From Nostoc sp. PCC 7524 (GTDB lineage: Bacteria > Cyanobacteriota > Cyanobacteriia > Cyanobacteriales > Nostocaceae), in assembly GCF_000316645.1 (NCBI RefSeq), contig NC_019684.1, positions 4,059,501-4,123,500 of the forward strand: DNA of 64,000 bases, given 5' to 3'. The notes beneath the pieces are model-generated. The model searched no databases and was not told the origin of the DNA. It saw only the letters and a list, made by a program, of their open reading frames with translations. Both the position numbers and the translations under genes were made by a program. Shown here piece after piece: positions 22,725 to 26,013 of the stretch. How positions within the stretch are numbered: the first letter of the stretch is position 1; each line of letters begins with the position of its first letter.

Positions 22725-23855
22725 ATGCAGTACCGACGCTTTGGGAAAACGAATCTACATCTTTCAGTTTTTTCTTTAGGAACAATGCGCTACTTAGCTG
22801 ATGCTGAAAATGTTCAGCAAACTATCAACAAAGCTTTAGCGCAGGGAATCAATCATATAGAAACAGCCAGAGGATATGGTAACAGTGAGGAGTATCTTGG
22901 TAAAGCCATCAAAACTGGATTGTCACTACCTCGTTCCCAACTGTACATCACTACCAAAATCCCACCTACAGCTGATGCTGATAGTATGCGTCGGTACATC
23001 AATGAATCCCTAGAAAGATTGCATATAAATTACTTAGATTGTCTAGGAATTCATGGCTTAAATACTTGGGAACATTTAGAGTGGGTGCAAAGCCAAGATG
23101 GCTGTATGAAAGCGGTAGCAGAAGCTATTAACGATGGTAGAGTCAGACACGTTGGTTTTTCCACCCACGGTGCATTAGAGGTAATACAAGCTGCTATCAA
23201 TACAAATTTATTTGCATTTGTCAATCTACATTATTACTATTTTTTTCAAAGAAACGCACCAGCAATTCAGTTAGCAACTGAAAAAGATATGGGCGTTTTT
23301 ATTATTTCCCCAGCCGATAAGGGAGGAAGATTATACACGCCTCCCCCAACTCTCAAAGATTTATGTCAACCGTTTTCACCTTTAGAATTAAACTATCGAT
23401 TTTTACTCAGTGACAAACGCATTACTACTTTGAGTGTAGGCCCAGCAAACCCAGAAGAATTAATAGAACCGTTAAAGGTTGCTGATAGTGATAGTGAGTT
23501 AACATCAGCAGAAATTTCAACTTTTAAACGTTTAGAACATCATCAAAAAACAGTTTTGGCAACTGAAAAGTGTAGCCAATGCTATGCTTGTTTACCTTGT
23601 CCAGAAAAGATTAATATTCCAGAGGTTTTGCGCTTACGGAATTTAGCAGTTGCATATGATATGAGCGATTACGGGCAGTACCGTTATGGAATGTTTGAAA
23701 ATGCTGGACATTGGTTTCCAGGAATGAAAGCCAACCGTTGTACAGAATGTGGTGATTGTTTACCTCGGTGTCCAGAAAATTTAGATATTCCAGCTTTATT
23801 AGCAGATACTCACAATCGATTAAATGGTAAAGCAGGTAGAAGATTGTGGGGATAA
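22725..23855 (+). CDS. Aldo/keto reductase with C-terminal 4Fe-4S motifs
   Basis: 376 residues. The N-terminal AKR barrel (about 1-280) shows FGKTNLHLSVFSLGTMR, ETARGYGNSEEYLGKAI (with the catalytic Asp region replaced by E-T-A-R-G-Y) and RHVGFSTHG. The C-terminal segment has CSQCYACLPCPEKINIPEV and CTECGDCLPRCPENLDIP, ferredoxin-like clusters of four cysteines each. Such fusions occur in anaerobes and cyanobacteria and probably couple carbonyl reduction to ferredoxin. The usual AKR tetrad (Asp-Tyr-Lys-His) looks incomplete here, so the reaction is uncertain. Confidence 0.9.
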   Translation: MQYRRFGKTNLHLSVFSLGTMRYLADAENVQQTINKALAQGINHIETARGYGNSEEYLGKAIKTGLSLPRSQLYITTKIPPTADADSMRRYINESLERLHINYLDCLGIHGLNTWEHLEWVQSQDGCMKAVAEAINDGRVRHVGFSTHGALEVIQAAINTNLFAFVNLHYYYFFQRNAPAIQLATEKDMGVFIISPADKGGRLYTPPPTLKDLCQPFSPLELNYRFLLSDKRITTLSVGPANPEELIEPLKVADSDSELTSAEISTFKRLEHHQKTVLATEKCSQCYACLPCPEKINIPEVLRLRNLAVAYDMSDYGQYRYGMFENAGHWFPGMKANRCTECGDCLPRCPENLDIPALLADTHNRLNGKAGRRLWG

Positions 23856-24178
23856 TTAATAATGGAAAATTTACATAAATTCTGAAGGAATAGCGGTAGC
23901 ATATCTTGCCGAACAACTGCGTTAAACTCTTTGGTAAGATAATTAGATAGGACTTTCGCAACTAGCAAACTAAAACAAAAGTGCAGGTATTTAATGGTTA
24001 TTAGTTCTACTTTTGACTAGGGACTATTGACTGCCACAAAGAAAAATGTATGATACCTACCTAAGTCCCGTTGAGGTTGTAGAAACTGAAGGGGAAATTG
24101 GTAATGTGGAGTAGTGGAGCGATCGCTCCTTACTACTACAGCGATAAGTGTCAAGACTGCTTACACTAAATACAAATC
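23856..24178. other. Intergenic region before ATPase gene
   Basis: 323 bp with no gene found. It contains a 14-bp HIP1-centred palindrome (GGAGCGATCGCTCC) at about 24116-24129 and AT-rich DNA that should hold the promoter of the ATPase/TOPRIM unit. Confidence 0.4.
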
Positions 24179-25360
24179 ATGAAGTCTTTGTCGTCTTTGG
24201 CGAGTAAGATTATGTTTACAAAAGTAAAAATAGAGAATTTTCGGGGTTTTCATTCTTTCCAACTGGAACAACTTGGTAGAGTCAACCTGCTGGTGGGTAA
24301 AAATAATACTGGTAAAACATCAATACTAGAAGCTATTCAAATGCTGTGTTCAAGAACTAATCTTGAGCCAATGCGTGAAGTCATGATAAATAGAGGTGAG
24401 TATTTTTGGAATTATAATCCAACAGAAATAGAAGAACGTGAGCTTGATATTTGTCATTTGTATCCTGCACATAAACTTCAATCTGGAAACAAATTTAGTA
24501 TATCTGGAATGAATGACAATATTGAAGAAAAAATTGTTGTAGCTATAGGAAAACATAAATTACGTTTAAATGACAATTCAAGTCAAGCATATATGCAAGT
24601 AGATAGTGAATTAGAGCCATCTTTAATAGAGATAGAAGCTTTTAATTTACAAGTAAATTGGATTTATGGTAATAAAAGCAAAGAAATTTTAAATATACCT
24701 TTATCAGAAAATAATGGCTTACCTTTAAAGTATATTCATCATTTCAGTCAAGATACTAATTTAGCACCCAGAACCATATTAGTTACATCATCTTCTTTAA
24801 CAACCGCAAAAATGACTGAGTTGTTTGAAAGAATTGTATTAACTCCTGATGAAAAATTAGTAGAAGAGGCACTTCATATTATTGATGGTCGAATTGAACG
24901 TATTGCATCAGTTAATCTGCAAAACGTCAGATCATTAAGAGTCAGAAATACTTTTGATTCACGCAGTGGTTTTTTTGTAAGTTTGTCTGATAGTGAGCAG
25001 CGCGTACCAATTGGCAGTATGGGTGATGGAATTTGGCGTATTTTGGGACTGGCGCTAGCTATTATATACGCTAAAGATGGATATTTGTTTGTAGATGAGA
25101 TTGATACTGGACTTCATTTCACTGCTATGTCTAATATGTGGCAGATGATTTGTAAAACTGCACAAAGATTGAACGTACAAGTTTTTGCAACTACTCATAA
25201 TAGTGATTGTTGGATGAGTTTAGCCAGTATTGCACAACAGGAAGATGTCACTGAGGATGGTATTAGAATTCATCGAATTGAGAAAGGTAAAGAAAAAAGT
25301 GTAGTCTTCACAGAACCGCAAATTGTCATTGCTGCTGAAAGAGAAATTGAGGTACGTTAG
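24179..25360 (+). CDS. OLD-like AAA ATPase (ABC-type), putative defence gene
   Basis: 393 residues, or 382 from the internal ATG at 24212 (MFTKVKIENFRGFHSF, the usual RecF/OLD-like N-terminus, which I find more likely). Walker A is LVGKNNTGKTSILEAI (about 39-54), the ABC-like signature region is VPIGSMGDGIWRILGLA, Walker B is YLFVDEIDTGLH and the switch histidine is in FATTHNSDCW. There is no TOPRIM in this protein; it is in the next gene, 2 nt away. Family knowledge links such ATPases (OLD, PARIS AriA, GajA) to anti-phage or conflict systems. AT-rich composition unlike its neighbours suggests horizontal transfer. Confidence 0.88.
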   Translation: MKSLSSLASKIMFTKVKIENFRGFHSFQLEQLGRVNLLVGKNNTGKTSILEAIQMLCSRTNLEPMREVMINRGEYFWNYNPTEIEERELDICHLYPAHKLQSGNKFSISGMNDNIEEKIVVAIGKHKLRLNDNSSQAYMQVDSELEPSLIEIEAFNLQVNWIYGNKSKEILNIPLSENNGLPLKYIHHFSQDTNLAPRTILVTSSSLTTAKMTELFERIVLTPDEKLVEEALHIIDGRIERIASVNLQNVRSLRVRNTFDSRSGFFVSLSDSEQRVPIGSMGDGIWRILGLALAIIYAKDGYLFVDEIDTGLHFTAMSNMWQMICKTAQRLNVQVFATTHNSDCWMSLASIAQQEDVTEDGIRIHRIEKGKEKSVVFTEPQIVIAAEREIEVR

Positions 25361-25362
25361 CA

Positions 25363-26013
25363 ATGACAAAAGGTTACGTAACTAAGAAGCTTTTAGTTGA
25401 AGGAAAAGATGATCTGAGAGTTATACCAGAATTGATAGAAAAGAATGGAATCATTTGGGTTGCACCAAACGGTAAACCTGTGGTTTACATACAAGACTGT
25501 GACGGTTATGAAAATATTAATGCAGACCTTATAACTACCGAATTGCAAGCATCAGGACTGACTCATCTGGGTTTGATCGTAGATGCTGATGCAGATTTAT
25601 CTGAACGATGGATCAGCATAAGAAATGCTTGTTTATCAAGTATACCAGACATTCCAGAAGACATACCAAACACAGGACTAATCCATGTCACAAACACAGG
25701 AATTAAATTTGGTGTCTGGATTATGCCGGATAACCTAATGCAAGGAATGTTAGAGACTTTTTTAGCTTATATGATTCCAGATGAGAGTGAGCCACTCTGG
25801 AAATATGCTCAGGAAGTCGTAGGAAAAGCAAAAGATAAAGGAGCATCATTTATAGATGCTCATCTTGATAAAGCTACAATTTACACTTGGTTAGCTTGGC
25901 AAGAAGAACCAGGAAGACAATTACATCAAGCTATCAAGTATAAAATTTTAAATCCCCAACATCCAAAAGCACAGATATTTGTGAATTGGTTTAAGGTTTT
26001 GTATGATCTCTGA
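25363..26013 (+). CDS. TOPRIM-like (DUF3226-type) partner protein
   Basis: 216 residues. The N-terminus KKLLVEGKDDLRVIPELI has the TOPRIM glutamate (E13), and HLGLIVDADADLSERW has the DxD acidic pair (about D74, D76). These are the Mg2+-binding positions of TOPRIM nucleases. The rest, with WIMPDNLMQGMLETFL and DKATIYTWLAWQ, fits the DUF3226 group as I remember it. Only 2 nt separate it from the ATPase stop, so the two form an operon and probably a complex, like a split OLD nuclease. Nuclease activity is inferred. Confidence 0.8.
   Translation: MTKGYVTKKLLVEGKDDLRVIPELIEKNGIIWVAPNGKPVVYIQDCDGYENINADLITTELQASGLTHLGLIVDADADLSERWISIRNACLSSIPDIPEDIPNTGLIHVTNTGIKFGVWIMPDNLMQGMLETFLAYMIPDESEPLWKYAQEVVGKAKDKGASFIDAHLDKATIYTWLAWQEEPGRQLHQAIKYKILNPQHPKAQIFVNWFKVLYDL

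Follow-up and report, generated by a model that had tools for sequence, protein, structure and literature searches.

The two genes at positions 24,179 to 26,013 of the window (the whole 64,000-nucleotide stretch of Nostoc sp. PCC 7524 DNA analysed here) encode an ABC/OLD-type ATPase and a DUF3226 protein that bears the sequence hallmarks of TOPRIM, and together they probably constitute an abortive-infection module, toxin-antitoxin-like in its logic and directed against phages, with the ATPase restraining the nuclease until infection. The pairing already has a catalogue name, PDC-M38, under which it is listed as a defence candidate only. A preliminary description of this DNA, as a split OLD-type or PARIS-like defence system recently acquired, was correct as to the kind of system but mistaken about recent arrival. 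Of the new features, the conserved tail of the ATPase is the most interesting. The features referred to below are as follows.

22725..23855, + strand: aldo/keto reductase (AKR), a flanking core gene outside the system that anchors the site (match at E <= 1e-100 in 13/13 genomes of the genus)
24071..24115, + strand: 45 nt left over from the 3' end of a Uma2-like gene, immediately ahead of the ATPase gene (blastn 80% over 45 nt to congener G004, E 4.7e-4)
24179..25360, + strand: ATPase gene, ABC/OLD-type (AAA_15), 393 aa as listed (Pfam and PADLOC-DB matches, kept motifs)
25346..25360, + strand: codons of the C-terminal ATPase tail, Ile-Glu-Val-Arg-stop (sequence; tails and codons of 109 distinct ATPases; Glu codon statistics; four plasmid copies)
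25349-25353, + strand: Shine-Dalgarno-like GAGGT inside the ATPase tail, 9 nt before the DUF3226 ATG
25363..26013, + strand: DUF3226 TOPRIM protein, predicted two-metal nuclease effector, 216 aa (Pfam, PADLOC-DB, profile comparison, residues)

Both open reading frames were confirmed on the + strand, 2 nt apart, and the ATPase contains both the Walker A motif GKNNTGKT and the Walker B motif FVDEIDTG attributed to it earlier. Pfam assigned the ATPase to AAA_15 (PF13175; 99 bits, 5.8e-28, cut-off 32.1) and to AAA_21 (70.7 bits, 2.9e-19), and its relatives in the PDB by profile include the PtuA, OLD, and RecF ATPases. Walker A, an SMGDG signature-like motif, D306-E307, and TTH were kept in all or nearly all rows of a 49-row alignment. 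Because M12 of the listed protein is conserved in at least 90% of the same rows, and an ATG lies at 24212, translation probably begins at this internal codon, giving a product of 382 aa rather than 393. Promoter-like sites numbered 5, as compared to 10.1 in shuffles; terminator-like sites numbered 2, as compared to 0.7, both of them inside genes.

The second protein matched DUF3226 (PF11536) at 239 bits (5.1e-71, cut-off 27). The acidic TOPRIM positions previously proposed for it, E13, D74, and D76, proved nearly invariant: across 74 aligned rows, that of the window among them, E13 was present in 73, D74 in all 74, and D76 in 69 (N in the other five), while E131 was found in 74 and K170 in 73. 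The E, G, and DxD motifs of the TOPRIM superfamily are present and invariant or nearly so. In the OLD protein of B. pseudomallei (BpOLD), E400, D455, and D457 are reported to serve metal A, E508 to serve metal B, and K562 to be the catalytic lysine (PMC6755086); judged by the order of the residues, E131 and K170 would be the corresponding metal-B glutamate and catalytic lysine. OLD-like_TOPRIM was matched by 11 of 21 DUF3226 members (best 2.2e-4) and DUF4435 by a single one (0.015), and the DUF3226 model gave weak matches, mostly close to its cut-off or under it, in the TOPRIM section of long fused OLD-type ORFs. In profile comparison, DUF4435 (11 rows, the AriB family) scored 45.1 and a set of five OLD-type proteins 47.1; the highest score among 30 column shuffles of each was 19.1, and the reversed profiles gave 15.5 and 14.5. 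The part that aligned was the N-terminal half of DUF3226, spanning the catalytic E and DxD. The score against RloB was 20.0, close to the maximum of 30 shuffles (19.3), and therefore no relation between DUF3226 and RloB is claimed. The closest PDB profile match was 1T6T, at an E value (0.049) that makes it suggestive only; 1T6T is described as a putative RNase M5 (PMC6755086). Pfam, the OLD-like_TOPRIM matches, and the profile comparison all support the earlier reading of an OLD-type ATPase next to a separate TOPRIM protein. Elsewhere in the same genome (G000:C2:1392729-1392860), an open frame of 636 aa that matches OLD-like TOPRIM at E 1.9e-5 is probably a fused OLD protein.

Whether this exact pairing was already on record had been left open, and PADLOC-DB provides the answer. 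The ATPase is PDC-M38A (2.4e-91) and the DUF3226 protein PDC-M38B (9.7e-81), both by nearly full-length matches, and the two genes are adjacent, as the PDC-M38 entry specifies; PDC stands for 'phage defence candidate' (PMC11514479). A literature search, with subscription journals and preprints mostly outside its scope, returned no paper on DUF3226 or PDC-M38 and no experiment on any DUF3226 pair. As far as these searches reach, the pairing is catalogued yet uncharacterised.

Three known systems lie nearest. PARIS (AriA + AriB) is recognised by AAA_15 (32 bits) or AAA_21 (27 bits) together with an adjacent DUF4435 (27 bits), according to the rule given in PMC9122126. The window ATPase exceeds both of the ATPase thresholds, at 99 and 70.7 bits, but Pfam found no DUF4435 match in the window nuclease up to E 1, so that by the published rule the pair is not PARIS. 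What stands of the 'PARIS-like' label is the layout, in which the ATPase and the TOPRIM protein have separate genes in this order, along with a TOPRIM core related to DUF4435; what falls is identity with PARIS itself, whose effector is DUF4435 where here it is DUF3226. The ATPases also differ: those of DUF3226 pairs are about 380 aa long with an -EVR tail, whereas seven of nine cyanobacterial ATPases beside DUF4435 are 443-476 aa long, the remaining two are 355 and 359 aa, and none of the nine has the tail. Among the cyanobacterial loci L209-L256, DUF4435 and RloB proteins are likewise placed after ATPase genes, and the DUF4435 proteins of L228 and L229 adjoin short ATPases of 355-359 aa ending RLEV or RLKV. 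AbiL (AbiLi + AbiLii) shares the plan of a two-gene abortive-infection system of ATPase and TOPRIM protein, and AbiLi (PDLC02336, PADLOC) matches the window ATPase over residues 12-393 at 6.5e-50; PDC-M38A matches it much better. The AbiL partner differs, AbiLii being described as RloB-like (PMC10440598), and neither AbiLii nor RloB was matched by the window nuclease up to E 1 in Pfam or PADLOC-DB. Finally, OLD nucleases and the Gabija protein GajA combine ATPase and TOPRIM modules with the same order of catalytic residues, but in one fused polypeptide, and GajA works with a helicase; the window pair is split and is without one. No ORF among the loci examined matched both the ATPase and the DUF3226 profiles, which places the pair outside OLD classes 1-3, and the GajB helicase is absent beside the window pair, where the next genes encode a glycosyltransferase-like membrane protein (label assigned here) and a reductase.

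The kinship with OLD raises the alternative of a split OLD enzyme, in which both proteins would nick or degrade invading DNA directly without killing the cell. The catalytic set of E, DxD, E, and K follows the order found in the DNA nuclease BpOLD, and the profile of DUF3226 resembles fused OLD-type proteins. Set against this, no helicase or other third gene was regularly adjacent to the pair in the loci listed, AriB, the closest of the split relatives whose target is known, is described as cutting tRNA (PMC12409363), and the DUF4435 and OLD scores are about equal; we regard this alternative as unlikely, if the best placed of the three considered here. The readings discussed are not exclusive of one another and their odds overlap.

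The abortive-infection reading draws on how consistently the two genes travel together. At least 557 DUF3226 matches were confirmed, and the best 80 were taken as named loci. An intact DUF3226 ORF directly follows a same-strand ATPase ORF in 70 of these best 80 of at least 557, which upholds the earlier proposal of a two-gene unit. ATPase sequence was detected by tblastn directly upstream in nine of the other ten; eight of the nine have one or both genes broken and the ninth (L098) is cut by the end of the sequence. The last of the best 80 (L111) is a truncated DUF3226 gene without an ATPase. Among the 69 intact pairs measured in the same set, the gap between the genes is 2 or 3 nt in 56. Cyanobacteria make up most of the taxa among the matches listed; planctomycetes, desulfobacteria, acidobacteria, a myxobacterium, and gammaproteobacteria are also represented, although labels on metagenome-assembled genomes may be wrong (L083, for example, has a planctomycete label and lies inside the cyanobacteria on the tree). 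The distribution is patchy: of the 13 genomes of the genus, five, the host's own included, have a DUF3226 match and eight have none, and in the phylum the count is 59 of 292 genomes, 56 of them above the cut-off. In the host genome, a second, diverged pair occurs near G000:C2 1769015 (L002 1498-3197), with the tail WEIR. A third small ORF (98 aa) follows this second pair, with transposase-like ORFs (label assigned here) nearby. In one subfamily (L006, L047, L048, L049), the DUF3226 proteins are longer, at 256-282 aa, and have their own adjacent ATPases, with ends such as LDIR, DIRR, and EVRW in place of EVR.

The pair is also found on mobile carriers. Matches occurred in nine of 72,556 plasmid records, and in all four that were opened an ATPase gene adjoins the match. 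Three plasmids with the pair are only 4,071, 6,449, and 14,301 bases long; on a Plesiomonas plasmid of 396 kb, phage tail genes precede the pair by some 3 kb. The pair also occurs on five IMG/VR contigs, whose 53 other ORFs, pooled, include an integrase family with four members and baseplate and tail families with two each (among the first 25 of 120 families). One viral contig (L135) has a restriction/methylase protein ahead of the pair and a baseplate gene behind it. No match was found in 50,697 named phage records. This spread over plasmids and phage-like contigs is defence-like, in keeping with the earlier reading.

The ATPases of these pairs share a distinctive C-terminus. E-x-R-stop closes 103 of the 109 distinct upstream ATPase ORFs that have a stop codon, and in 98 of those the ending is EVR. 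Four of the six exceptions (L006, L047, L048, L049) pair with the longer DUF3226 proteins, and in three of the six (L035, L047, L049) EVR or DIR lies one or two residues short of the C-terminus. The codon for the final Glu is GAG in 97 of the 103, as compared to 861 of 3,064 Glu codons elsewhere in the same genes (Fisher p 2.5e-44, a value that overstates the case because the rows are related). With the following GT, this codon yields GAGGT, a sequence complementary to the end of 16S rRNA, which in the window stands 9 nt before the DUF3226 start. Since the ribosome-binding sequence of the nuclease gene thus sits in the last codons of the ATPase gene, translation of the nuclease is probably coupled to completion of the ATPase. 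A purely RNA-level explanation of the tail is disfavoured, because six copies that use GAA nevertheless retain Glu, and because the last Arg, though outside GAGGT, is kept through both CGN (94) and AGR (9) codons. The four plasmid copies all end VEVR, the final Glu being encoded by GAG in two of them and by GAA in the other two. Both a translational and a protein role for the tail therefore seem likely from its sequence, and as an exposed element -EVR is a candidate for docking. No E-x-R end was found in 40 Walker-A ORFs at DUF4435/RloB loci (some of them fused or unrelated); one (L256) ends DVR. Our literature search found no earlier report of the E-x-R tail or of the GAG bias.

Recent arrival of the pair at the window site had been proposed from its AT-richness. 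The ATPase and nuclease genes have GC contents of 33.3% and 36.6%, against 41.2% for the window, but the next gene is at 36.8% and several other stretches of the window drop to 33-36%, so base composition is weak evidence of acquisition. The flanks point the other way. Upstream of the pair lie M23, RibE, BFN, and AKR (labels assigned here from Pfam names). AKR has a single match in each of 13 genomes of the genus and was found in 58 of 60 genomes of the family; it precedes the pair in 11 of the 80 named loci (the best 80 of at least 557, some of whose flanks do not extend far enough to judge) and in 3 of the 20 regions sampled around pairs. Because the same core flanks occur in many Nostocales, alongside intact, broken, and deleted copies, the pair at the AKR site is an old resident under repeated loss rather than a fresh insertion. 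A recent acquisition was rejected on the AKR flanks and on the grouping of site copies on the tree. That tree is a quick one of 81 pairs with SH-aLRT support only. The 12 rows labelled as at the AKR site fall within one 25-row part of it, and the site label needs 7 changes on the tree as compared to an average of 11.3-11.4 in shuffles; the 12 rows do not form one clade, which argues against one uncomplicated history. The grouping of the window with L052 has a support of 89, below the 95 mark. L052 is apparently the same record as congener G001, having the same gene places.

Among the 13 genomes of the genus, the site holds two intact pairs, two broken pairs, three deletion traces, and six cases of no trace. 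The intact pairs are those of the window and of G001. In G008, an insertion of about 900 bp containing two transposase-like ORFs (label assigned here) lies some 20-25 nt into the DUF3226 gene, and the ATPase frame is split; in G012, two stop codons interrupt the DUF3226 frame. The flanks of G002 and G012 are about 94-95% identical, and G002 is without 1,834 bp at one junction. Its scar (L190 13939-13986, after AKR) retains the last 16 DUF3226 codons and the 3' end of the Uma2-like gene; a 75-nt block there, 84% identical to the window, spans those 16 codons and the bases after them. In G003 and G004, the flanking blocks are contiguous without the pair, with about 200 unmatched bases between them in G004. 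The pair-free junction of G003 (L191) falls on the octamer GCGATCGC, which is found on both sides of the pair in G001 (L189), and excision mediated by this repeat is possible in G003. We take the GCGATCGC octamer to be the HIP1 repeat of cyanobacteria. The window copy itself could be heading towards decay, though both of its genes are open and their motifs kept. In several relatives a Uma2-like gene lies between AKR and the ATPase gene; the window has lost it except for 45 nt. Uma2, which precedes the pair at the AKR site in many Nostocales, was considered as a third component and rejected, given this loss and given that 3 of 107 pair-region proteins match it as compared to 2 of 127 control proteins.

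Neighbouring genes were compared between 16 of 20 pair regions (107 proteins of at least 150 aa, the pair left out) and 16 of 20 control regions on the same contigs (127 proteins). PADLOC at 1e-15 returned 90 families in the pair regions and 83 in the controls, and in this blunt test, which compared the first 25 families of each, there was no clear excess of defence genes near cyanobacterial pairs. Within those first 25, HEC-01A (2 members) and PDC-S03 (3) were unique to the pair list, and GajB, Cas12f, and DRT were unique to the control list. The Pfam families in excess around pairs (AKR 5, Lum_binding 3, BFN 3) largely reflect the shared AKR site and not defence. The preliminary description had named residence in conserved housekeeping loci, away from mobility or defence neighbours, as grounds for abandoning the defence reading; this holds in part and locally, in the core flanks and the want of a clear defence excess, and does not hold for the plasmids and phage-like contigs. 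A housekeeping pair for DNA or RNA maintenance in cyanobacteria is very improbable: the shared site beside core genes across Nostocales and the cell-cycle role described for an OLD protein in Sulfolobales (PMC12796447) would suit it, but DUF3226 goes unmatched in 8 of the 13 genomes of the genus, stops, frameshifts, or insertions have disrupted copies, and the pair rides on plasmids and phage-like contigs.

A selfish addiction pair, a toxin and antitoxin that stabilise plasmids and prophages without a real defence role, is better placed than housekeeping, if still doubtful. It would explain the carriage on plasmids as small as 4,071 bases, the apparent coupling of the nuclease gene to its restraining partner, and the decay on chromosomes; the large conserved ATPase and the restriction/methylase neighbour in L135 fit defence better, although the two roles are not exclusive. 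The abortive-infection module, for its part, is supported by the ATPase and TOPRIM families, the kept catalytic residues, the pairing, the mobile carriers, the patchiness, the loss and breakage, and the PADLOC listing. It is weakened by the core flanks, by the lack of a clear excess of defence neighbours in the regions compared and of any named-phage match, and by a similarity to RloB that is not significant.

The proposed order of events in such a module is as follows. The ATPase would bind ATP, dimerise or oligomerise as ABC/OLD ATPases do, and hold the DUF3226 TOPRIM nuclease inactive. Infection would alter the state of the ATPase and so release or activate the nuclease, which would cut nucleic acid with two metal ions (E13, D74, and D76 with E131 and K170); the cutting would stop both cell and phage. 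This division of labour, with the ATPase sensing and restraining and the nuclease executing, is proposed by analogy with two described cases: AAA:TOPRIM_OLD pairs are reported to act as toxin and antitoxin, with toxicity neutralised in E. coli (PMC10440598), and an AriA hexamer is described as sequestering AriB until a phage protein triggers release, whereupon AriB cuts tRNA (PMC12409363). By comparison with AriB, RNA, perhaps tRNA, is the more likely target, and DNA is possible by comparison with OLD; the nearly equal profile scores (45.1 for DUF4435, 47.1 for OLD) favour neither. More tentatively, DUF3226 pairs may form a third branch of split ATPase-TOPRIM immunity, with the -EVR tail as a docking or inhibitory peptide and its codons as the ribosome-binding site of the nuclease, which would then be made only after a complete partner.

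If the abortive-infection reading is true, a widespread, uncharacterised branch would be added to the split OLD/PARIS/AbiL kind, ranging across cyanobacteria, planctomycetes, acidobacteria, desulfobacteria, gammaproteobacterial plasmids, and phage-like contigs. The -EVR tail with its embedded GAGGT would offer a precise, mutable handle on how the cell keeps such a nuclease safe, and a chromosomal site at which the pair is variously intact, broken, or deleted would make the turnover of a defence-like locus directly readable.
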